Of a stretch of 64,000 nucleotides of DNA, positions 17,647 to 58,384 are shown one piece after another. Where the stretch lies: positions 124,001 to 188,000 of the forward strand of contig JAEUJZ010000160.1 in assembly GCA_016794505.1 (NCBI GenBank), in the 5' to 3' direction. The DNA comes from Myxococcales bacterium (GTDB taxonomy: Bacteria > Myxococcota_A > Polyangia > Palsa-1104 > JAEUJZ01). How positions within the stretch are numbered: position 1 is the first letter of the stretch; each line of letters starts with the position of its first letter. The notes beneath the pieces were generated by a model. The model was not told the origin of the DNA, did no database searches, and saw nothing but the letters and a program-made list of their open reading frames with translations. The position numbers and the translations under genes are program-made.

Positions 17647-19740
17647 TTATCGCTGGGCTGTCTGTCCTGCGTTCGGCTCAGAAGGTTCTGAGGGACGCGA
17701 TAAGGCGTCTTGCATTTCCAAGAGCCCCTCGGGCGCGGCGGGCTGCAGCGGGAGCTCGGCTGTGACTCGCGTGCCTTCACCTGGCCGCGACTCGATGGTG
17801 CATGTGCCTCCGAGTAAGCGTGCGCGTTCCATCATTCCTGAGAGTCCTGCCGCCTGTCGTGCTGAGAGTGATCCTTCGGGATGAAAACCCTGTCCGTGAT
17901 CTTCTATCTGAAGTCCTAAATGCACTCCATCCGACCATATACGGACAGTTGCCTCATTTACCTTGGCGTGCCGCGCAACATTGGTCAGAGCTTCTTGCGC
18001 GATGCGGTACGCGGTGCTTTCGAGCTCGGGGGGAAAGCGGCGATCGACTCCGCGGGCCAGCAGCTGTACGCGAATGTGCATCATTCGCTCATAGCGCTCA
18101 GCCAGCCAGCGCAGCGTGGGAAAGAGCCCCAGATCATCGAGAATCGTTGGACGCAGCTCTAAGGACAGCCGACGCACTCGCTCGACGATATCGCCGACCA
18201 GCTCTTGCGCGTTGTGCAGCGCGGTGCGGCCGGTGTCGTCCTCGATCTTGGCTGGGTCGACTCGCTGCAGGCTGAGCTTGAGGCCCGTGAGCAGCTGTCC
18301 GATATCGTCATGCAGCTCGCGTGCGACGCGACGACTCTCGGTCTCTTGCGCATTGGCTAGGCGGCGTGACAGATCCTGCACCATCTGCAGTGCTTCCAGC
18401 GTTCGTGAGCGCTGGGCTCGTTCGCGATCGAGGTTCTTCTGCAAGCCGGCCGCGTGATCGCGCTCGGTCAGATCACGGATGATCGTCAGCGTCGCCGCGC
18501 CCTCTTGCAGATGCACATGGGCGCTCTGTCCGCTTACGTGAACCAAGCGGCCGTCCTTTCGCACGAGGTACAGCTCCAGAGCCTCCCGACACTGCGCATC
18601 GGGTTTCTGGAGGAACTCCGCCATGCGCGGCAGGACGCGATCTCGTTCCACCTCGGGCAGAAGCTGGGCCTGATCCGCGCCGATCAGCTCCTTGCTTTCG
18701 TACCCGGTGATTCGCAGCAGCGTCGGGTTGACATACTGGATGGTGCTGCCCTGCGTCAGCAGCAGCCCATCGGGTGAGCCCTCGGCGAGCGTGCGGAACA
18801 TGGCTTCGGAAGCGCGCAGGCGCTGCTCGGTCGAGAGCTGCTCGGTTACGTCGCGCATCAGACCGATGGCGCCGCTGATTCCTCCCCGTGCATCGCGAAG
18901 CGGGCCCCAGTTGAGCTGACCCCAGATTTCGCGATTTGTGCGGTGGTGGCGAACCACGCAGGGCGCTTCCGTGTGCGTCTCACCACGCAGGGCGGGTTCA
19001 CTGCCGCGCAGCAGGGGATGCGACGGCACCAGCACATCGGCGTGCTTCCCCTTGAGGACATCCTGTTCCGAGAAGCCTGTGGTCTCTTCCATGTACCGGT
19101 TCCACGCCAAGAAGCGAGCCTGCTGCGCGAGAACGACGATGCCGATCTCGGCGTTGGCAAAGATCGAGTTCTGGAAGTCGATGGACTGACGAAGCTGCTG
19201 CTCTGCGCTGTGGCGTTCTGTGATGTCTTCCAAAAGCGCCGCCCGGCGATACGGCTGGCCTTGGGCGTCGAAGATCGGAAACACCATGATGCGCACGTAG
19301 CGGACCGCTCGATCGGTCGCGCGCACAATGCGAAACGTTCGCTCGGTGTCGGGCATGGCTTCGAGCGTGCGCAGGCGCTGCAGCCGCTCAGCCAGAGCCG
19401 GCATGTCTTCGGGGTGAACGATCTTTCGCCAAACCGTGATGTCCTTCAGAAGATCGCTCGACGGCAAGCCCGTCAACGTCTCAAAGCTCGGACTCACGAA
19501 CAGCACGTTGAGCGTGGCGCTTTCCAGAATCCAGAACACCACGGGCAGGGCGCTGGTGAGCTGGACAAACAGTTGAATGGTCTCACGCTGCGAGCGGCTG
19601 GCCGACAACGCAGCATTCTGCGCTTCTAGCAGCAGGGCATTGACCTGCTGAAGCTCGTTTTCCAGGCGCAGCCGATCCGCGCTCAGGGCATTGAGCTTCG
19701 CCAGAAGATCCGTCCAAACCTGTGAGCCAAAATTCTCCAT
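17647..19740 (-). CDS. PAS-domain sensor histidine kinase (HisKA_3 / NarX-like)
   Basis: This is a 697-residue soluble sensor kinase with no transmembrane segment. An N-terminal coiled coil (about 10-50) precedes three PAS/PAC units (about 55-180, 185-305, 310-430), suggesting a cytoplasmic redox, light or ligand signal. The dimerisation/phosphoacceptor region has SRRVARELHDDIGQLL with the conserved His. The ATPase domain shows AYRIAQEALTNVARHAK (N box), IEDHGQGF and GLSGMMERARLLGG. This layout is that of kinases partnered with NarL-type regulators, and such a regulator is encoded directly downstream. The start at 19740 is about 137 bases from the divergent mutM. Signal unknown. Confidence 0.94.
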   Translation of the reverse strand: MENFGSQVWTDLLAKLNALSADRLRLENELQQVNALLLEAQNAALSASRSQRETIQLFVQLTSALPVVFWILESATLNVLFVSPSFETLTGLPSSDLLKDITVWRKIVHPEDMPALAERLQRLRTLEAMPDTERTFRIVRATDRAVRYVRIMVFPIFDAQGQPYRRAALLEDITERHSAEQQLRQSIDFQNSIFANAEIGIVVLAQQARFLAWNRYMEETTGFSEQDVLKGKHADVLVPSHPLLRGSEPALRGETHTEAPCVVRHHRTNREIWGQLNWGPLRDARGGISGAIGLMRDVTEQLSTEQRLRASEAMFRTLAEGSPDGLLLTQGSTIQYVNPTLLRITGYESKELIGADQAQLLPEVERDRVLPRMAEFLQKPDAQCREALELYLVRKDGRLVHVSGQSAHVHLQEGAATLTIIRDLTERDHAAGLQKNLDRERAQRSRTLEALQMVQDLSRRLANAQETESRRVARELHDDIGQLLTGLKLSLQRVDPAKIEDDTGRTALHNAQELVGDIVERVRRLSLELRPTILDDLGLFPTLRWLAERYERMMHIRVQLLARGVDRRFPPELESTAYRIAQEALTNVARHAKVNEATVRIWSDGVHLGLQIEDHGQGFHPEGSLSARQAAGLSGMMERARLLGGTCTIESRPGEGTRVTAELPLQPAAPEGLLEMQDALSRPSEPSEPNAGQTAQR

Positions 19741-49044: not shown

Positions 49045-49719
49045 TTACAGGTTGCGTTCTTCTTCGATCACCCAGCGACCGCCGCGACACCACAGCGCGC
49101 TGCTCCAGCCACCGGGCTTTCCCCAGGACAGGACGCAGTAGCCTTCGCCGTCTTTGCAGGGGGTACCAGGGCGCGGGCTTGGCTCGCAGCGTCCGTCGCC
49201 CAGGTGCCGAATAGGCGGCGGCGGTGATGGCATCGGTGCTAGCTGCACAACGGCGCTTTGGTCGCGGGCTGAAAGCAGGCGGACGCAGTGGCCGAGGATC
49301 TCGCTGCTGGTCGGTGGGCTGAGCGCGCTTGGCAGGCGCTGCACTTCGTCGTTGCCGCGACGGAACACTAGGTGGGCCAAGAGTTCGAAGCGCCCGTCGT
49401 CGTACTGGTCGTGCGAGATGCCTTGGTACTGCACGGAAAAACCGCTTGGGCTGGTGCGGCGGCCACCGACGGGAATATCGAGTGTCGGTGCATCCGCGGG
49501 AAGTGGGCAGGCGTCTTTTGGCTCGGGTGTCGACGGCAGCGCCGCATCGGGAAGCGCGGCGATGGAGGTTGACGAGGCCAACGGGACGGCACTCGACGGC
49601 GTAGGCGCAGACGCCGGGTTTGCCGAGCGTGCCGCGGCCGAAAGATCGCTGCGCGGGGGCACGACCGCTGGGGATCGGCAGGCCAGCAGGGCAAGTAGCA
49701 GCAGGCCACGGGGTCGCAT
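49045..49719 (-). CDS. Hypothetical lipoprotein
   Basis: This encodes 224 residues. A short signal peptide ends in LLAC (residue 13). About 60 residues of Ser/Ala/Pro-rich linker follow, then a small domain (about 80-224) with six Cys (CPLPADAP, GHCVRLL, DGRCEPSPRPGTPCKDGEGYCVLSW and a final one before the C-terminus). Disulfides are likely. Function unknown. It is 41 bases downstream of the SRPBCC gene, so it may be the last member of the long minus-strand run. Confidence 0.7.
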   Translation of the reverse strand: MRPRGLLLLALLACRSPAVVPPRSDLSAAARSANPASAPTPSSAVPLASSTSIAALPDAALPSTPEPKDACPLPADAPTLDIPVGGRRTSPSGFSVQYQGISHDQYDDGRFELLAHLVFRRGNDEVQRLPSALSPPTSSEILGHCVRLLSARDQSAVVQLAPMPSPPPPIRHLGDGRCEPSPRPGTPCKDGEGYCVLSWGKPGGWSSALWCRGGRWVIEEERNL

Positions 49720-49760: not shown

Positions 49761-51068
49761 CTAGTAGACCTGCGTCTCAGGCCCGAAGGCGACGGAGGGA
49801 CGCGGGCGACCACTCGTGCGCTCGGCTCGCGTGCGGATGGCTTCCAGGATGACCAGCTGCATGCCGACGTTGACGCCGTATTCCATGAGCGGCTCCAGCT
49901 TGTAGAGCTGGCGCATGACCAAGCTCGCGCGGTCGTACTGCATCGACGACCGCAGGACGATCTGCGTGCCGCCTTGGCGCAACGGCACCAGGTCCCAGCG
50001 CATGCGTGCGCCCTTGAGGTCACCGGACAGCCCCATCATGTCCATGGTGCGGCCCTGGACGCGGGCGCCATAGGTTGTGCGAAAAGACAAAAGGGGCAGT
50101 GACTGCTCGATATCCACCATGCTGGTCGTGTCTTGCGCGCCGGCTCCGACGCTCTGCGTAATGCTGGGGATATAGTTCTTCCAGTCCGACGTCTGTTCGA
50201 CCAAGGCGGAAATAAACTGCGAAGGAGCGGGGGTTCGATCAATCAGCGATACCTCAGAAAGGCGGCCTCCTTGACTGCGCAATAAGACCACGGTGCCGCG
50301 GTCAGCCAAGAAATCCACCGAGGCCGATTGAGAGGGTGCGGGAAGCGCTGCAACCGGTGCGACCTGCTCGGCCCGGCGCTTGACCTGCAGCAAGAGCGTG
50401 CTCTGCGCGACCAGCGCCATGCCCTGTTCCAGCGTCGGGACCTTTTCCAAAACCTTGGCGATCATGCCGCCAGACTTGGTCACTTCAGTAAAACCATACA
50501 TAACAAGCAGGGTGCCGCCGTATACGCTGTAAAATTCAAAGCGAAAACGACGTACTGAATAATCAAAGTTGGGATCAACATCACGAATTTCAACCGGCGC
50601 CCCAGCCATTTGTTGATTTGCAGGCAGTTGCATATAACGATTCGTGCCTTCGACAGAAAATAAGCCATAGCTTAACTGATAGCTATAATCAAAGCTGCCG
50701 TCTGGATTGTTGGATACGATTGACTTCTTAAAATTCTGGACATATTCGCGATATTGGTCGGCTCGCCACAGCACCTCGCGTACGACGCTGGGCGGGGCAG
50801 CGACGAACGTAAACAGCGAAAGCTGGCGCAGGTGACCGTCGGGCTTTGACTCGATCACGGCGATGTCGGTGCTGCGCAGAAGCGGGGCCAGCGACACGAT
50901 CTTTTCCTGGGGCCAGCCCGCAAGCGGGACCATCCGCTTGACCTGTGCCCGCGCAGGCGACACCAGCAGGCCCAGGCCGATCAGGCACAGCCACAGAGCC
51001 TGGCTGCGGACAAGACCGCGCACGCAAAAGCGAGGGCAGGGGCGGGGGCGGGGGATGTGTCGGCTCAC
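49761..51068 (-). CDS. Exported protein with two SRPBCC (START-like) domains
   Basis: This encodes about 435 residues starting at a GTG, chosen because GGGAGG lies eight bases upstream. A signal peptide (cleavage after ARAQ, about 43) shows export. Two START/polyketide-cyclase-like lipid-binding domains follow: one around 60-225 (LSLFTFVAAPPSVVREVLWRADQY) and one around 250-400 (LIDRTPAPSQFISALVEQTSDWKNYIPSI; LVPLRQGGTQIVLRSSM). SRPBCC folds hold hydrophobic ligands, so a periplasmic lipid-carrying role is plausible. The region 50470-50760 has unusually AT-rich codons. It follows the polysaccharide deacetylase gene by 34 bases. Confidence 0.82.
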   Translation of the reverse strand: MSRHIPRPRPCPRFCVRGLVRSQALWLCLIGLGLLVSPARAQVKRMVPLAGWPQEKIVSLAPLLRSTDIAVIESKPDGHLRQLSLFTFVAAPPSVVREVLWRADQYREYVQNFKKSIVSNNPDGSFDYSYQLSYGLFSVEGTNRYMQLPANQQMAGAPVEIRDVDPNFDYSVRRFRFEFYSVYGGTLLVMYGFTEVTKSGGMIAKVLEKVPTLEQGMALVAQSTLLLQVKRRAEQVAPVAALPAPSQSASVDFLADRGTVVLLRSQGGRLSEVSLIDRTPAPSQFISALVEQTSDWKNYIPSITQSVGAGAQDTTSMVDIEQSLPLLSFRTTYGARVQGRTMDMMGLSGDLKGARMRWDLVPLRQGGTQIVLRSSMQYDRASLVMRQLYKLEPLMEYGVNVGMQLVILEAIRTRAERTSGRPRPSVAFGPETQVY

Positions 51069-51102
51069 GGGGAATGCCTCCCGACGGGCGCAGGCCCGGC
51101 AG

Positions 51103-51810
51103 TTAGTTGGGCGCAAGCTCGCGCATGGTGTGGAACGTGGCACCGCGCTGCCGGAAGAAATCGACGGTTGCAGCCAGCGAGTCCAAGGCTGGCTGCCCGG
51201 TGCGATAGCGGCAGTCGATCGGAATCGGCCAGTCGGTCGCGTCGACGAATTCCCAGGGGTGAAAGAAAAAGACAGCCGGGCCGCGTAGCTGCGACAAGAG
51301 CGCGCTGCGCAGCGTCGCTGGAATGCGCAGCCACGAGGGCGCCACCGAGGCGGGTACGCGCGACAGGCCGTGCGTGCGGCTGGGCTCAGCGAAGAACGTG
51401 CCGGGCTTGTGGCGGCCGATCGATGAGTCCACGCGATAGCCGTGCTGCGACAAGATGGGCAGAAACGGCTCGGGAAAGTCGAGGTTGGGGGCGCGAAAGG
51501 ACACGACCTCGCCAAAGCTGCGCAGCGTGGCCGAGGCATCGCGGACCTCGCGCTCGGCCTCGTCGTGCGACATCAGGCTAAAGCGCTTGTGGCTGTCGCC
51601 GTGACAGCCTAGCTCGTGCCCGGCCTCGACGATGCTTTGCACCACCTGGGGAAAGCGCCGAGCGACATCGCCGGTCGTAAAGAACGTGCCGCGGATCCCA
51701 AGCTGCTTGAGCCGAGCCAGCACCCGCGGCGTGCCCTGCACGACACCGAAAAAGGTGCTCAGGTACGGCGGGCAGTCTTGCTCCATATCGATGGTGATGA
51801 GGATCTGCAT
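51103..51810 (-). CDS. NodB-type polysaccharide deacetylase
   Basis: This is a 235-residue carbohydrate esterase family 4 enzyme. The five motifs are recognisable: ITIDMEQD (catalytic Asp region), HELGCHGDSHKRF (metal-binding HxxxH), VVSFRAPNLDFPE, and FFFHPWEF near the C-terminus. No signal peptide, so it probably acts on a cytoplasmic or membrane-attached sugar, which fits deacetylation of a lipid-linked sugar as by ArnD or the XrtA-locus enzymes. It starts at 51810, 18 bases after the methyltransferase stop. The neighbouring glycosyltransferase supports a role in glycolipid or glycan assembly; substrate unknown. Confidence 0.92.
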   Translation of the reverse strand: MQILITIDMEQDCPPYLSTFFGVVQGTPRVLARLKQLGIRGTFFTTGDVARRFPQVVQSIVEAGHELGCHGDSHKRFSLMSHDEAEREVRDASATLRSFGEVVSFRAPNLDFPEPFLPILSQHGYRVDSSIGRHKPGTFFAEPSRTHGLSRVPASVAPSWLRIPATLRSALLSQLRGPAVFFFHPWEFVDATDWPIPIDCRYRTGQPALDSLAATVDFFRQRGATFHTMRELAPN

Positions 51811-51828
51811 GGGCCGGTCTCCGGGCGG

Positions 51829-52488
51829 CTAGACGGATCCGCTATAGCGCGCGGGTTCATGGCGTTGCGAGGTGTCGGCGTCGCTGCGCTCGCCCAAGAT
51901 GAACGAGCGATCGTGCCAGATGTTGGCGTTTTCGTTGGTGTGGCTACCCAGGATGCGCAGGCCGCTTGCTTCCATGGCTGCGACGATTTCGTCGACGGTG
52001 CGGATGCGATAGGGCGATGCCTCCAGCGGGAACCATGGGGCCCCGGTGAAGCGGTGCAGCAGCGTCGTGCGCACGGTGCTGTCGACGACCAAGACATAGC
52101 GACGGCTCAAGCGGCGCAGGGCGGCGATGAAGGGATCGGCATCGCGAAAGTGGTGCATCGCGCCATAGGTGATGGCGACGTCGAAGTTGCCGGTCACGGT
52201 CATCGAAAGGACATCGGCCAGCACGATCGGCAAGCCGCGGCGACGGGCTTTTTCAACGAGGCGCGGGTTGATCTCGAAGCCATGGATGGTGTCAAGCTGC
52301 AGAAGGTCGCGCAGCCTGGCGGTCACGTGGCCATCGCCGCAGCCGACATCGACGGCGGTGCGGGCGACGACGCCGTGTGCGGAAAGAAAGCCACGCAGAT
52401 CGCGCAGCTCTTTTTCCAAGTCCTGAACATGCACGCTACCCGTCGTGAACGAGTAAAAGTACTGCTCGATATTGGGTAAGCCAAACAT
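51829..52488 (-). CDS. Class I SAM-dependent methyltransferase
   Basis: This is a 219-residue small-molecule methyltransferase. Motif I is TAVDVGCGDGHVTARL, followed by IHGFEINPRLVEKAR and FDVAITYGAMHHF. AGGAGAC stands ahead of the ATG at 52488, fixing the start (MFGLPNIEQYFY). The N-terminus contains an aromatic stretch that may contact a lipid or sugar substrate. Neighbours are a glycosyltransferase upstream and a deacetylase downstream, so the acceptor may be a lipid head group, sugar or quinone-like ring. Substrate not readable. Confidence 0.9.
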   Translation of the reverse strand: MFGLPNIEQYFYSFTTGSVHVQDLEKELRDLRGFLSAHGVVARTAVDVGCGDGHVTARLRDLLQLDTIHGFEINPRLVEKARRRGLPIVLADVLSMTVTGNFDVAITYGAMHHFRDADPFIAALRRLSRRYVLVVDSTVRTTLLHRFTGAPWFPLEASPYRIRTVDEIVAAMEASGLRILGSHTNENANIWHDRSFILGERSDADTSQRHEPARYSGSV

Positions 52489-52550
52489 TCCGTGTCTCCT
52501 GTGCGGACGTGCCGATCGATGCAAGGCGTCGGCGACCTGCGCCCGCCACT

Positions 52551-53738
52551 CTAGCAAACTGCGACGGTCTTTTCGTTCAGGGGCAGACCAAAGCGATCGA
52601 GGAGGGGCTCGGTCTGTTTTCGCTCGCGCGCCACGGCCAAGTCATAGACGTTGAGCTGCCGCTCGATGATGTGTTCCCACGCGAAGCGTCCCACGCGCGT
52701 CGTGGCCTGCTGCGCCATGCGCTGCCGCAGCGCGGGATCGGCAAGCAGTCGCACGATGAAGTCGGCGAATTCGTCGCGGTTGTTCGCCAGATATCCTTCG
52801 GAGCCGTGGGCTACGACGTCGGCGACGCCGCCCTTATTCATGGCCACGACAGGCAGGCCAGCGGACAGCGCCTCGACGCAGACGATGCTCATGGCTTCGC
52901 GCTCGGTGGGCAAGACGAAGAGCGTCGATTCTTCGAAGATCTCGCGGATCTTCGGTCGGTCGAGAAATCCGGGAAGCTCAAGGTGCTGCGTGACGCCAAG
53001 CTGGGCAGCTTCCCGCTCGACCTTGCGGCGGGCGGTGCCGTCGCCAATCAGCGTGAACACAGGCCGCAGCGGCTCGGGAAGCTGGGCATGCACGCGGGGG
53101 ATGGCGCGCACGACGTCAAAGGGGCGCTTGCGGTTGGTAAAGCGCATGACGCTGACGACGCGAGGACGGATCGGCGGTCGCGGCTGCGTCTTCCACTCGG
53201 CCACGTGGACGCCGTTATGCAGCACGAAGACATCGCTTCGGTCTGTGATGCGCGCGAGCTGATCGGCGACGCACTGACTGACCCCGGAAAGCAGCGTCGG
53301 CCAGTGACCCCAGTCCGAGACGCGGTGCAGCGCTTCAAAGAAGCGCAGCCAGCCGGCTCCCAGCCACGAGCACTCGGTGAACAGACAGGGAATTCCAAGC
53401 TGACGCGCTTGGTAGGTCGCGACGTGGGTCATGGGCAGAAACGCCGCCTGGACGTGGACGATGTCATAGCGCTCGCGCTCGAACAGTCGGCGCAGCGCCG
53501 CCGCGGCCGACGGATCGCGAATGGTCTGCAAGAACGGCAGGCGCGGCAAGCCCAGGCGATGCAGCGTCACTCCGTCGTCATAGCTGGCCGGACCCGGCGT
53601 GTTGCACACCACGTGTACGTCGTGCCCGCGACGGGAAAGTTCGCGGGCCAGATCGCGAACGTGAAGCTCAAGGCCGCCGATACGCGGCAGGTACATCTCA
53701 CTGACGAGGGCAACTTTGTATTTCTTCCGAGGCTGCAT
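52551..53738 (-). CDS. GT4-family glycosyltransferase
   Basis: This is a 395-residue GT-B enzyme. The N-terminal acceptor domain opens with KVALVSEMYLPRIGGLELHVRDLAREL. The donor site shows TLIGDGTARRKVEREA, LPGFLDRPKIREIFEESTLFVLPTEREAMSIVCVEALSAGLPVVAMNKGGVADV, the E-x7-E pattern of retaining GT4 enzymes. No membrane segment, so it acts at the inner face of the membrane on a lipid acceptor or soluble substrate. The start at 53738 (MQPRKKYKVALV) is where homology begins. It lies 61 bases downstream of the RND/MMPL gene and 62 upstream of the methyltransferase. Sugar and acceptor unknown. Confidence 0.93.
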   Translation of the reverse strand: MQPRKKYKVALVSEMYLPRIGGLELHVRDLARELSRRGHDVHVVCNTPGPASYDDGVTLHRLGLPRLPFLQTIRDPSAAAALRRLFERERYDIVHVQAAFLPMTHVATYQARQLGIPCLFTECSWLGAGWLRFFEALHRVSDWGHWPTLLSGVSQCVADQLARITDRSDVFVLHNGVHVAEWKTQPRPPIRPRVVSVMRFTNRKRPFDVVRAIPRVHAQLPEPLRPVFTLIGDGTARRKVEREAAQLGVTQHLELPGFLDRPKIREIFEESTLFVLPTEREAMSIVCVEALSAGLPVVAMNKGGVADVVAHGSEGYLANNRDEFADFIVRLLADPALRQRMAQQATTRVGRFAWEHIIERQLNVYDLAVARERKQTEPLLDRFGLPLNEKTVAVC

Positions 53739-53799
53739 GACGCAAGTCCGCTCTCGCTTTCTGGGCGTGACGGGTGAGCCAACAAAGGGAAGCGGCCGG

Positions 53800-56403
53800 C
53801 TAGCTCTGCACCGGGGCTTCGGCGGGCTGCGTCGCTTGGAAGCGCGCCTGCAGCTTGGCATAGAGCACGGCGACGGCGGGCAGCAGGGTTGCGGCGGCGA
53901 ACAAGCAGGTGACTTCGCCGATGTCCGCGGCCAAGCCAAACGATCGCAGCGCGCGGTTGCTGGCCAGAAGCAGCGTCGAATAGCCGATGATCGTCGTGGC
54001 CGAGCACAGCGCCACCGCAGATCCCGTGTCGGTGATGACGCTGCGGATGCTGGCCGGGCCTTCGCTGCGCAGGCGCGACCAGATGTTGGCGGCGTAGTCG
54101 GCTCCGACGCCCAGCGTGATCGGCATGGTCACGAAGTTCATGAAGTTCAGCTTCAGGTTGATCAGGCCGAGAATTCCCAAGAGCCAGGTCATGCCGACCG
54201 CGACGGTCAGAAGCACGGGCAAGGCGCCCAGCGGGCCGAACATGAGGATCACCAAGCTGACCACGCCGACCAGCGCGATCAGCGTCAGCTTGGGGGCGTC
54301 GCGATGGATGGCATCGACCATGCCCGCAAAGATCGAGCCCGCGCTCGCCGCCACCCAGGTCTTGCCCAGTGCCTGCACGGTCAGCGATTCCGACAGGCGG
54401 ATCAGGTCATGGCCGTTCCAGCCGGCATAGTTGGTGAAGTCGGCATCGATGCCAATCAAGCGCCCGCGCTGTCCGTCGGATTCAGTAAAGGCTTCCAGCA
54501 CCAGCTTGGGCAGATCGTCGGCGGTCAGGCGACGTAGGTACTCAGGCGGGCGAAAGGCCTGCAGATCCTTCCACTCGCTCTCGTCCATCAGCGACTGGTT
54601 CTGGTCGAGCTTGTGACGAATTCGCGCGAGGATCGCCAGCTTTTCGTCCTGTTCCGTCGGCAGGGCCGAATTCAGCGTGCGCACCGTCGCCAGCGTGTGC
54701 TTATCGCCGCGCGCCTTGTCCTGCTTGCGCATGGCTTCGGCGACGATGTCGGCCTGCTCGGGTGCGTCGACCAGCAAGACGCCGTCGTTGCCGATGTACC
54801 CGGCACCGACGTTGCCCATGCCCAGCGAATCGGCGCGGCCCCACAGCTTTTCGGATTCTGTCGGATCGCTGCGCAGGTTGTTGAAGTTCCACTCCAGCGG
54901 GTCGACGGCGTACTTGCGCAGCGGCAGCAGCGCGGCGGCAAACAGCAGCACCGAGACAAACGCGACCGAAATCGGCCGCCAAGCGAGCAGGCGGCCAAGA
55001 AGCCCGAACGGCCAGTGCCACAAGCTGGGCTTGGGCGTGAACACGCCGGGAATCAGCCGCTCACCGAGCAACACCAGCGGGGGAGCGAGCACAATCGAGG
55101 ACAACCACACCAAGATCATGCCGGCGCCCCCGAGGACACCAAACTGGCTGAAGCCGCGGAAGTCGGTGAAGGTCAAGCTGCCATAAGCGATGCTGGCGGC
55201 CAGCATCGCGGTCGCGGTGCCGAGCATGGTGGCCGACAGCGCGATGCTCAGCGCTCGTTCCGTCGAGCGCCCCGAGCGCCGCTCTTCACCATAACGGGCT
55301 AATAGCATAATTGGCGTATTAATGCCATTGCCAATAATGATTGATACCAGAAAAGCTGTATTGATATTTAGATATTTAATTAGCACCTGAGCCAGCATCA
55401 GTGCCAGCAAGACGCCGTACAGCGCGGGCAGCGTAATCACCAGCAGCATGCCGATGCGGCGGAAATACAGATAAATCGCCAGCATGACGACGACGACGCA
55501 GACCAAGGTGGCCATCGTGATGTTTTCTTGCACCGTCTTTTGTTCACCTAGCGCCAGCGCGATGTGGCCGGTGTAGTGGATCTTCATCTGCGGGTGAAAC
55601 GACACCGGGTTCAGGTCGTTGACGAGGCCCTGCACCGTCAGAAACGTTTGCTTGTCGCCCATGGTGGCGAAGCCGTCGCGCTGCCGCCACAGCATCACGC
55701 CGACCGAGTCGATGCCGTTTTCGCGGCTGGAAAAATACGTCTCTTTCAGCTCGGGACTGCCGGCCTGCTCGGGGGGGACCACGACGGGCTGCGGCTGCGG
55801 CGTGCTGGACGCCAAGACCACGCGCGAGTCGAGATCGCGGCGCAGCGCGGTTAGCTCGGCCTCGGCATCGCCTTCCAGGTCGACGAACACCGGCAGCTTG
55901 CGACGGGCGAGGATGCGGTCGAGCAGCGACTCGGCCTTTTCTAGCTCGCTCTTTTCCGCGTACAGCCACTTCCACTTGGCGGCGTAGCGCGGCACTTCGT
56001 CGTCGGGGCGCCACTGAATCGACGAGAACACGCTGGGAATCAGCGGATCGAGCTTGGTCTTTAGCGCCTGAAAGAAGCGGCGGTTGGCGATCGGGTCGGG
56101 GCTGTCGACGATCAAGACCAGGTTGGTGGCGCTCTTCTGACGGCCGGCGATCTTGCGCAGGGCCGCGACCGAGGGATGACTCTCGGGCAGTAGCTCGGCG
56201 AGATCGGTGCGTAGCTCAAGCTGCTTGGCGTAGCTGCCGGCCAAGAGCCCAAGGAGCAGCGCCGCCAGCAGGATAAAGCCGCCGCGACGCGCTGCGAACG
56301 TGACATAGCGGGTACACAGCCGCTCCAAGCGACTGCCCGGCGACGCAGGATTCGATGAGCCGGACGACGGAGGAGGAGACGCAGGGACGGGAAGCGAGCT
56401 CAT
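53800..56403 (-). CDS. RND/MMPL-family lipid exporter (HpnN-like)
   Basis: This is an 867-residue member of the hydrophobe/MMPL branch of the RND superfamily. Twelve transmembrane segments are expected: TM1 (about 37-57, FILLAALLLGLLAG), a large periplasmic loop with LRTDLAELLPESHPSVAALRKI, TM2-6 (about 297-430), a second half starting near 490 (ISVAFVSVLLFAAALLPL) and TM8-12 to about 850. DLAELLP is a hallmark of the hopanoid/lipid exporters. MMPL proteins move lipids or glycolipids across the envelope. An AT-rich coding island at about 55300-55400 (TM3-4 region) is odd. It lies 157 bases after the flippase-like gene, in which a weak promoter is possible. Confidence 0.92.
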   Translation of the reverse strand: MSSLPVPASPPPSSGSSNPASPGSRLERLCTRYVTFAARRGGFILLAALLLGLLAGSYAKQLELRTDLAELLPESHPSVAALRKIAGRQKSATNLVLIVDSPDPIANRRFFQALKTKLDPLIPSVFSSIQWRPDDEVPRYAAKWKWLYAEKSELEKAESLLDRILARRKLPVFVDLEGDAEAELTALRRDLDSRVVLASSTPQPQPVVVPPEQAGSPELKETYFSSRENGIDSVGVMLWRQRDGFATMGDKQTFLTVQGLVNDLNPVSFHPQMKIHYTGHIALALGEQKTVQENITMATLVCVVVVMLAIYLYFRRIGMLLVITLPALYGVLLALMLAQVLIKYLNINTAFLVSIIIGNGINTPIMLLARYGEERRSGRSTERALSIALSATMLGTATAMLAASIAYGSLTFTDFRGFSQFGVLGGAGMILVWLSSIVLAPPLVLLGERLIPGVFTPKPSLWHWPFGLLGRLLAWRPISVAFVSVLLFAAALLPLRKYAVDPLEWNFNNLRSDPTESEKLWGRADSLGMGNVGAGYIGNDGVLLVDAPEQADIVAEAMRKQDKARGDKHTLATVRTLNSALPTEQDEKLAILARIRHKLDQNQSLMDESEWKDLQAFRPPEYLRRLTADDLPKLVLEAFTESDGQRGRLIGIDADFTNYAGWNGHDLIRLSESLTVQALGKTWVAASAGSIFAGMVDAIHRDAPKLTLIALVGVVSLVILMFGPLGALPVLLTVAVGMTWLLGILGLINLKLNFMNFVTMPITLGVGADYAANIWSRLRSEGPASIRSVITDTGSAVALCSATTIIGYSTLLLASNRALRSFGLAADIGEVTCLFAAATLLPAVAVLYAKLQARFQATQPAEAPVQS

Positions 56404-56560
56404 GGTTTTTTATCTAGGTATCTAGGATTAAGGCCCAGAGGGCGGCTAGGTTGCTACGTACGTGCTACAGGATCTGACGGCTAGGCCAAGGCGTAAGAAA
56501 GAAACAAATAGGACTGACCAACTCGTGTGGCAAGTAAAGACGTGCGAGCGGCGCGAATCG

Positions 56561-57694
56561 TCATGGAGGGTTGATGCGGGTTGCAGCACGCTGCCCAAGG
56601 GGTCGCCGCGCAGTCGGCTGGTCCCGTCTGTCGGAAGGCAGGCACAGATTCCACTGTCGTCGAAGCTCAAACAAGCCCACGAGAGTCACGGGCACGAAGT
56701 GGACCATGTGATACAGGACGGCGATGGCGAGAGCGCGTGAGGTGTCGATGCCAAGGGCGGAAAAGCCCATGACCAGGCCGGCCTCAATGACGCCAAACTG
56801 GCCCGGTGTCGATGGTGCGAGGCTCGCCAAGCGGCCGATCATCATGAGGACGACGCAGGTGCCAAAACCAAGCTGGGTGCCGACGGATGCTGCGGCCATG
56901 CCGATGCTGAGCGCGTTGGCGACCTCGACGAGAAGTGAGCAGCCAAGGCCCGCCAGCCATAGGCCCGGACGCCGCAGGAGCTGCATGGCCTGGGCGGTTC
57001 GTCGCAGAAATCCGGCGTTCTCGGCGGCGATGTCTTCTCCGTCGCGCAGGGCATCGGGGTGCTGGCGCCCCCAGATCCAGGACACCGCCAGAAACGCGAC
57101 GACGCCACCGGCTCCGATGGCTCCGCCGATGAACATGGCTTTGTTCAGGGCATAAGGCAGGGGCGTAGACAGCGCCACACCAACGGCCAAAAGACCCAGG
57201 CAGAGCCCGTCGATGATGGCGGTGACAAGCTGGCTCGCCACCAAGCGACCCGTGGTGTACCCGTGCCCGCGCTGCAAGAGCACGGTGCGCACAACGAACG
57301 CGGCGGGCGACGGCAACAGGTTGTGCGCGGCCGAGGTGGCGAGATAGATCGAAGTCAGCGCGCCGAGTCCGACGCCGGGCCCTTGCACCGGCAGCACGCG
57401 CAGCAGCAGCCACAGCCGCAGGCTGCCGGCCACCATGCAGACGGCCACCGCCGGCACCGCCGCGGCCAGCCAGCGATGGTCCGCGGTCCACAGCACGCTC
57501 TTGAACAGCGAAAAATTCACCGAGCGGATGGCGAGCCAGATCAGCAGGCCCTGCAACAACACGCCAAGTACGGTGCGTATCCAGCCGGGCGCCCTAGGGG
57601 AAAACCCCGACAACAAGGACGCGCGATCCAGCCTCGTCGGCGGGGACGAAAGGCCAGGGCTCGAAGGCTCGCTATCGGTCGGTACCTGCAGCAT
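56561..57694 (-). CDS. Flippase-like membrane protein (lysylphosphatidylglycerol-synthase TM domain / AglD-like)
   Basis: This is a 377-residue integral membrane protein with about eight transmembrane segments starting at residue 40. The family pattern is visible: LLQGLLIWLAIRSVNF, LTSIYLATSAAHNLLPSPAAFVVRTVLL (conserved N/P region) and LASLAPSTPGQFGVIEAGLVMGFSALG near the C-terminus. Members include the flippase-like half of MprF and AglD-type proteins that accompany glycosyltransferases. It lies upstream of the MMPL exporter on the same strand. A polar N-terminal tail of about 35 residues precedes the fold. Likely to flip a lipid-linked intermediate; substrate unknown. Confidence 0.9.
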   Translation of the reverse strand: MLQVPTDSEPSSPGLSSPPTRLDRASLLSGFSPRAPGWIRTVLGVLLQGLLIWLAIRSVNFSLFKSVLWTADHRWLAAAVPAVAVCMVAGSLRLWLLLRVLPVQGPGVGLGALTSIYLATSAAHNLLPSPAAFVVRTVLLQRGHGYTTGRLVASQLVTAIIDGLCLGLLAVGVALSTPLPYALNKAMFIGGAIGAGGVVAFLAVSWIWGRQHPDALRDGEDIAAENAGFLRRTAQAMQLLRRPGLWLAGLGCSLLVEVANALSIGMAAASVGTQLGFGTCVVLMMIGRLASLAPSTPGQFGVIEAGLVMGFSALGIDTSRALAIAVLYHMVHFVPVTLVGLFELRRQWNLCLPSDRRDQPTARRPLGQRAATRINPP

Positions 57695-57799: not shown

Positions 57800-58384
57800 T
57801 TATGGGCAGGGGATGGCCCGGAACTGCGCTGCCGCTTGCACATCGCGCAGGCCACCGGGCAGCGTGCTGCATGACAAATCTCCCTCGAACAAAGCGAAGG
57901 GATCAGGCCCCTTGACGCGGATGCTGCAGACTAGCTCAGCGGCGCGGTCGGAGGTGACCCAGGTCATGGGGTTCGAGGTCTCGAACGTGCGGGCATCTAG
58001 GCTAAGCGGCAGCTTCAGGCTGATTTCTCCGACGCTGACGGTGTCCTTGTCGATGCGCATCGAGGCATAGGGGGCAGCACCCAGGCCCTGCAGCGAGATG
58101 GTGATGCCGGCCGCGCCTCCGGTGGCGGCAACGACGATTTTTTGGCCAAAGCGCTGGCACTGCAGCACTTCAGTGACGACGGGCAGCTTCAAGGGCGTGT
58201 TGCCCGTGGTGGTGCCGGGGGGTTTGACGGTGTACGTCAGGTCCATGTACTGAGTGGGCCCTGCGGGCGCTGGGTTGCCACAGCCCGGCGCGGCAGCCAT
58301 GGCCATACTGGCAGCCACGGCCACAAGACCACGGCGCACTGTGAAAAGGCGCAATCTAGACAGGCGATGGGTCGGCATGTCCAC
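57800..58384 (-). CDS. Hypothetical lipoprotein
   Basis: This encodes 194 residues. The signal peptide (LVAVAASMAMAAAPGC) ends with a lipobox-like APGC. The mature part has a short Pro/Thr-rich linker and beta-rich segments (MDLTYTVKPPG, KIVVAATGGAAGITISLQG, ISLKLPLSLDARTF) and four Cys, probably two disulfides. Two start codons are close together (58384 and 58378). The family is not recognised. It is 105 bases upstream of the flippase-like gene on the same strand and divergent from the WD40 protein gene. Confidence 0.75.
   Translation of the reverse strand: MDMPTHRLSRLRLFTVRRGLVAVAASMAMAAAPGCGNPAPAGPTQYMDLTYTVKPPGTTTGNTPLKLPVVTEVLQCQRFGQKIVVAATGGAAGITISLQGLGAAPYASMRIDKDTVSVGEISLKLPLSLDARTFETSNPMTWVTSDRAAELVCSIRVKGPDPFALFEGDLSCSTLPGGLRDVQAAAQFRAIPCP

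Follow-up and report, generated by a model that had tools for sequence, protein, structure and literature searches.

What could six neighbouring genes encoding a flippase-like membrane protein, a transporter, three enzymes and a secreted protein do together? The genes in question lie between positions 49761 and 57694 of the window, by which we mean the whole stretch of 64,000 nucleotides analysed here (positions 124,001 to 188,000 of contig JAEUJZ010000160.1 from a Myxococcales bacterium; the assembly of this genome, G000, comprises 9.2 Mb in 191 contigs). A first-pass annotation had taken them for a cluster assembling and exporting a glycolipid. We lean, with some reserve, towards a similar answer: a conserved module for building an envelope lipid that bears a sugar and for moving it outward, with a tandem START protein as the periplasmic carrier. 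In the order of transcription the six open reading frames, all on the minus strand, are called here FLIP, MMPL, GT4, MT, DAC and SRP. Their coordinates and the range of their spacing, 18-157 bp, are exactly as first annotated; the gaps amount to 157 bp (FLIP-MMPL), 61 bp (MMPL-GT4), 62 bp (GT4-MT), 18 bp (MT-DAC), and 34 bp (DAC-SRP). Start codons were corrected for SRP (GTG at 51068), MT (ATG at 52488), and GT4 (ATG at 53738). The 157-bp gap may contain a second promoter and therefore one transcript for all six genes is not assumed.

The grouping was examined in 14 genomes of the order, i.e. the window genome and 13 relatives; the relatives with names are Myxococcales metagenome-assembled genomes. 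Co-occurrence in relatives had been put forward with the annotation as a check, and its outcome favours the grouping. In G007 and G009, both from a different family of the order, FLIP, MMPL, GT4, DAC, and SRP all have orthologues within 6532-15505 of contig 89 and within 130510-142077 of contig 12, respectively; the five genes take up 9-12 kb, and their order and orientation are shuffled. Parts of the block are kept together in further relatives: MMPL, FLIP, and DAC on a 3.4-kb contig in G003, DAC, GT4, and MMPL on one contig in G005, and, in the fragmented G011, still the pairs MMPL-GT4 and SRP-FLIP. In G003, G007, and G009 the FLIP orthologue adjoins MMPL, with coding overlaps. A scan of the genome contigs added no relative to the five already found. 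DAC orthologues (55-61% identity) occur in G003, G005, G007, G009, and G011, GT4 orthologues (47-51%) in G005, G007, G009, and G011 as well as, in partial form, in G013, and FLIP orthologues (34-47%) in G003, G007, G009, and G011, further ones of 37-38% identity being present in G006 and G010; orthologues or close paralogues of MMPL (47-67%) are present in most of the 14 genomes. As gene order and strand vary among these loci, the linkage has been retained through rearrangement. A rough estimate per genome, assuming independence, puts the chance of four single-copy genes landing near the fifth at 3e-11 for G007 and 6e-11 for G009. We conclude that the five-gene neighbourhood is real and selected; its function we infer from its parts.

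The sixth gene fared differently. MT had been counted as a member of the set, but no orthologue was found in the 13 relatives at E<=1e-8. Consequently, MT was rejected as a core part and is regarded as a lineage-specific accessory gene. What stands of the six-gene set is a conserved neighbourhood of five genes, the composition of which varies among the relatives. A radical S-adenosylmethionine (SAM) enzyme is situated near or beside the block in three of them (G007, G009, and G011); the copies of G007 and G009 are 75% identical and the G011 copy is on the contig bearing the N-terminus of MMPL. Further additions to the block in relatives are a FemAB-like acetyltransferase, encoded directly next to SRP, and a GT87-like protein. 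Neither the radical SAM enzyme nor the FemAB-like protein has an orthologue in the window genome at the thresholds used. In another genus of the order (G001 and G004) MMPL and SRP orthologues (57% and 54% identity, respectively) are accompanied by a GT4 of only 28% identity, a nonorthologous PF03706 protein, and a PF01522 deacetylase other than DAC; Pfam identified the PF03706 protein in G004, and family clustering extended the assignment to G001. As these three members are not orthologous to those of the window, the same functional set is here rebuilt from replacement parts.

The families given in the annotation for the membrane proteins and the enzymes hold, all five proteins scoring above the Pfam cut-offs. 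FLIP (56561-57694, 377 amino acids) matches PF03706 (LPG_synthase_TM) with 139.6 bits against a gathering score of 33.4 and is a member of the flippase-like MprF/AglD/HpnL superfamily; its lipid flipping is a putative activity. GT4 (52551-53738, 395 amino acids) is a glycosyltransferase with an intact EX7E motif (PF00534, 109 bits; PF13439 was also assigned), and MT (51829-52488, 219 amino acids) is a class I SAM methyltransferase (Methyltransf_25, 42 bits). DAC (51103-51810, 235 amino acids) is a NodB-fold deacetylase with conserved Asp/His motifs (PF01522, 66 bits). Inspection of the sequences found no hydrophobic N-terminus in DAC or MT, in agreement with the earlier description of a deacetylase lacking a signal peptide. 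Among the best NCBIfam matches of DAC and GT4 are XrtA/exopolysaccharide families, for DAC the XrtA family TIGR03006 being the best. The scores (75 bits against a cut-off of 276 for TIGR03006 and 86 against 409 for TIGR03088) do not place the proteins in the XrtA/PEP-CTERM exopolysaccharide families.

MMPL (53800-56403, 867 amino acids) belongs to the MMPL/RND superfamily. Pfam PF03176 matches two stretches, one in each half (85 bits), and a simple scan predicted 11 hydrophobic segments. In the NCBIfam ranking HpnN comes first (TIGR03480, 156.5 bits against a cut-off of 751.85), followed by HAE3 and BstA; the score against the BstA equivalog is 122 bits (cut-off 1400) and, in the comparison with HpnN-type exporters, that against NF052374 is 98 bits (cut-off 1100), so that MMPL is assigned to none of these curated families. 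The best solved relative is again HpnN (5khn, 7e-20). With HpnN and BstA as the nearest families, the earlier description as a lipid exporter type is borne out. Two transmembrane (TM) segments set the protein apart from HpnN. TM4 carries the motif GNGINTP (55312-55332), with GNGIN in 15 of 15 aligned members of the order where HpnN reads GLGVD. TM10 carries GVGADYA (54091-54111), and an acidic residue is present here in all 14 aligned members reaching TM10 (DY, in two cases EY), compared with GVGVAF in HpnN. According to the alignment, the acidic site is thus in TM10 and not in TM4, in the half opposite to that of HpnN.

SRP (49761-51068, 435 amino acids) has a signal peptide (residues 1-43) with hydrophobic residues 18-36 followed by SPARA/Q. 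No Pfam or NCBIfam family matched the protein, and the best hit of a profile search of the PDB was 1t17 with an E value of 0.32 only. A single-sequence AlphaFold model was unusable (pLDDT 33), whereas an AlphaFold (AF2) model of the mature protein calculated from a 6-sequence alignment reached a pLDDT of 76.9 and a pTM of 0.80. It consists of two repeats, in each of which a long C-terminal helix is packed against an antiparallel sheet and closes it, as expected for two helix-grip folds. With this model Foldseek retrieved from the PDB the di-domain aromatase/cyclases StfQ (2.5e-13) and BexL first and then many single START/SRPBCC proteins; the target-normalised TM-score against START proteins is up to 0.82. 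Over the full length the TM-scores against the di-domain proteins are low (0.3-0.4), so that SRP and these aromatase/cyclases differ in the relative placement of their two domains. SRP is therefore a tandem SRPBCC/START protein as judged by its predicted fold, not by its sequence, and the two SRPBCC folds of the first-pass annotation are recovered.

Across 318 genomes of the class, strong matches to the SRP family were obtained in this order only and weak ones in two other families. In a maximum-likelihood tree the six MMPL-linked SRPs form one clade (97/100), which also includes one unlinked paralogue of the window genome. The members of a second, separate clade (97/96) are in an operon with DctP and TatT genes and beside DctQM genes of TRAP transporters, the distance to DctP being 1-60 bp. 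The three loci (L045, 8268-13297; L048, 9203-14295; L051, 6162-11166) have DctQM as a fusion, and a FadL/TodX gene is near two of them, L048 and L051; possibly they represent a TRAP variant with an additional START-fold periplasmic subunit. The family is thus tied to three transport settings (MMPL, TatT-TRAP, and FadL), which supports a role in periplasmic lipid handling independently of the fold and is in line with the hydrophobic-ligand role first ascribed to SRP. Near the second tandem SRPBCC gene of the window genome a bacterial Pnkp-Hen1 RNA-repair pair was found (L044, 1790-5766, contig C151). Distant tandem-SRPBCC genes in another family of the class (L056, 9992-16645; L057; L058) have as common neighbours an LpoB-like gene and the gene of a 450-amino-acid protein that is conserved but has no Pfam match.

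Both MMPL and SRP contain an island of low GC content at third codon positions (GC3). The islands are situated at 55276-55410, around the conserved TM4 motif, and at 50502-50708, and over 20 codons GC3 drops to 0.25 and 0.15 compared with gene averages of 0.84 and 0.72, respectively. No comparable drop was seen in the orthologues checked; slow codons or local conversion are perhaps the reason. A further patch, codons 591-642 of a 2.1-kb minus-strand gene (17647-19740), is far from the block. The genes upstream (57800-58384) and downstream (49045-49719) were rejected as members, having no tblastn match across 20 relative loci.

From these parts the following pathway can be proposed. On the cytoplasmic side of the membrane, GT4 would glycosylate a lipid, the added sugar probably being an N-acetylated hexosamine. 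The cytosolic DAC would then free the amine, and in the window genome MT may methylate the sugar or the lipid. FLIP would help to turn the lipid to the periplasmic leaflet, from which MMPL would extract it in a proton-driven manner. Finally, the secreted SRP would hold the hydrophobic part in its cavities and carry the lipid to the outer envelope. The chemical steps, their order, the outward flow, the glycolipid product, and the carrier role we infer from the orthologous linkage, the replacement of parts in G001 and G004, the position of MMPL nearest to HpnN, BstA, and HAE3, the START fold, the company of the SRP paralogues, and the precedent of the hopanoid pathway, all of which favour this proposal. 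Several observations weigh against it. Clusters for surface polysaccharides typically contain such a GT4, deacetylase, and FemAB-like gene as well, the deacetylase of G001 and G004 belongs to another subfamily than DAC, and solo paralogues of MMPL exist with other neighbours. Moreover, TRAP systems import, and with SRP paralogues sitting beside them the flow could be inward. For the lipid itself, sterols are a testable candidate.

We considered several alternatives to a glycolipid export module. The genes could be chance neighbours without a joint function, which would suit the ordinary gaps of up to 157 bp and the lineage-specific MT; with five genes linked in two other genera in rearranged order, and an estimated probability near 1e-11, this is hardly credible and for five of the six genes already refuted. 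A surface polysaccharide pathway is a more serious alternative, albeit an unlikely one: GT4, DAC, and the FemAB-like and GT87-like proteins would build and trim a polyprenyl-linked oligosaccharide, FLIP would flip it, and MMPL and SRP would act on the carrier lipid or on a lipid anchor at the terminus. The XrtA/exopolysaccharide matches of DAC and GT4 and the FemAB-like and GT87-like genes of the relatives point in this direction. These XrtA matches are, however, all far under the cut-offs, the block of the window has a single GT4, no Wzx, Wzy, chain-length, polymerase, or XrtA gene is among the annotated neighbours, and the coding overlap of MMPL and FLIP ties an RND exporter to the pathway. 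We regard as very unlikely an inward route, in which SRP and MMPL would take up a hydrophobic compound for the enzymes to modify or detoxify. Such an uptake route could be suspected from the paralogues in operons with TRAP genes and near FadL, and from an mlaE/mlaD set adjoining the block in G007. Yet the annotated parts of the MMPL-linked loci contain no FadL or TRAP gene, glycosyltransferase, deacetylase, and flippase-like protein together follow a biosynthetic logic, and the characterised HpnN exports lipids.

The acceptor of the sugar could also be a sterol, in which case the module would make a steryl (amino)glycoside and export it by means of a START carrier, taking the place of bstABC. 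The window genome probably makes sterols, since an oxidosqualene-type cyclase (osq_cycl 794 bits compared with 235 for hopene cyclase; VSDCTAE motif) lies beside genes for SdmA-like (384 bits) and SdmB-like (319 bits) proteins and a P450. The locus (L103, 536-9077 of contig C187) encodes an FA_hydroxylase-family protein, the SdmB-like protein, the P450, the SdmA-like Rieske protein, and the cyclase, a set also known from methanotrophs that make sterols. None of the genes annotated in this 17-kb stretch was recognised as a bst gene, the score of MMPL with BstA is in keeping with the idea, and eukaryotic START folds bind sterols (PMC10942540). In 11 further members of the order the VSDCTAE motif is likewise present in cyclases; besides its main cyclase the window genome has two weaker SQHop_cyclase_C matches. 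Assigning the substrate by cyclase co-occurrence failed, however, since nearly every genome of the order has a cyclase, with or without GT4 and DAC orthologues, and the association with the block is not specific. In addition, there is no linkage between the block and the sterol genes, MMPL matches HpnN better than BstA, and START folds bind many ligands. Altogether, a sterol acceptor is rather unlikely. It is quite improbable that in sterol-making myxobacteria the tandem START protein, together with an MMPL subfamily set apart by TM4 Asn and TM10 Asp, shuttles a steryl or other amino-glycolipid across the periplasm as an alternative to bstABC; if true, this would be a bacterial counterpart of the eukaryotic START sterol carriers.

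The proposed glycolipid export module bears on lipid transport through the periplasm to the outer membrane by routes other than Lol, Mla, Lpt, and HpnN/Bst. In one bacterial order, a family of secreted proteins with a tandem START fold is linked to MMPL, TatT-TRAP, and FadL, which makes its ligand directly testable. If SRP carries a glycolipid or a sterol, it would represent a new class of periplasmic carrier and, beside the hopanoid pathway, a second, independently assembled pathway of glycosylation, deacetylation, and export.

How does the block compare with known systems? A literature search found no SRPBCC-MMPL glycolipid system, and the START-type periplasmic component, the family of which is absent from Pfam and NCBIfam, is new. 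Aryl polyene and flexirubin clusters combine an MMPL exporter with a LolA-like periplasmic carrier of hydrophobic compounds. The block likewise has an MMPL exporter and a candidate periplasmic carrier, but the fold of the carrier differs and no ketosynthase or acyl carrier protein is among the six genes. The TatT-containing TRAP (TAtPT) transporters resemble the system in that SRP paralogues are in operons with DctP and TatT; the SRPs associated with them form a separate clade, however, and the MMPL-linked loci contain no TRAP gene in their annotated parts. With BstABC of Methylococcus capsulatus (PMC10942540) the block shares an inner-membrane MMPL protein and a secreted lipid-binding protein, and its genome shares the SdmA/SdmB-like and cyclase genes of the host. 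In that system BstB is phosphonate-binding-like and BstC, a shown sterol binder, is a member of the Tp0956 (TatT) superfamily (PMC10942540), whereas the candidate carrier of the block is a tandem SRPBCC protein; in the window block, neither Pfam nor NCBIfam revealed a gene for a phosphonate-binding or TatT protein.

The closest parallel is the hopanoid pathway, in which HpnI adds GlcNAc, HpnK deacetylates, the radical SAM enzyme HpnJ forms the cyclitol ether, and HpnN exports, HpnL being without an assigned role (PMC12583986). Like the hpn cluster (hpnI/K/J/L/N), the block contains a glycosyltransferase, a deacetylase, a PF03706 protein corresponding to HpnL, and an RND exporter with HpnN as its best family and best solved relative, and in three relatives a radical SAM enzyme is added as a counterpart of HpnJ. 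The first-pass annotation, which fairly stated that no named system has exactly this set, had overlooked this functional parallel. The parts themselves differ: GT4 is not of the hpnI type and the PF01522 deacetylase is not of the hpnK type, the main cyclase of the window genome is of the oxidosqualene type, and the TM4 Asp of HpnN is Asn in MMPL. FLIP gave no HpnL match at E<=0.05, its G007 orthologue reached 24 bits against a cut-off of 195.65, and membership in the hpn cluster was rejected on the HpnN and HpnL scores, which are far under the curated cut-offs. Judged by analogy, the block works like the hopanoid hpn system without being a member of it, and adds to this arrangement a tandem START protein.

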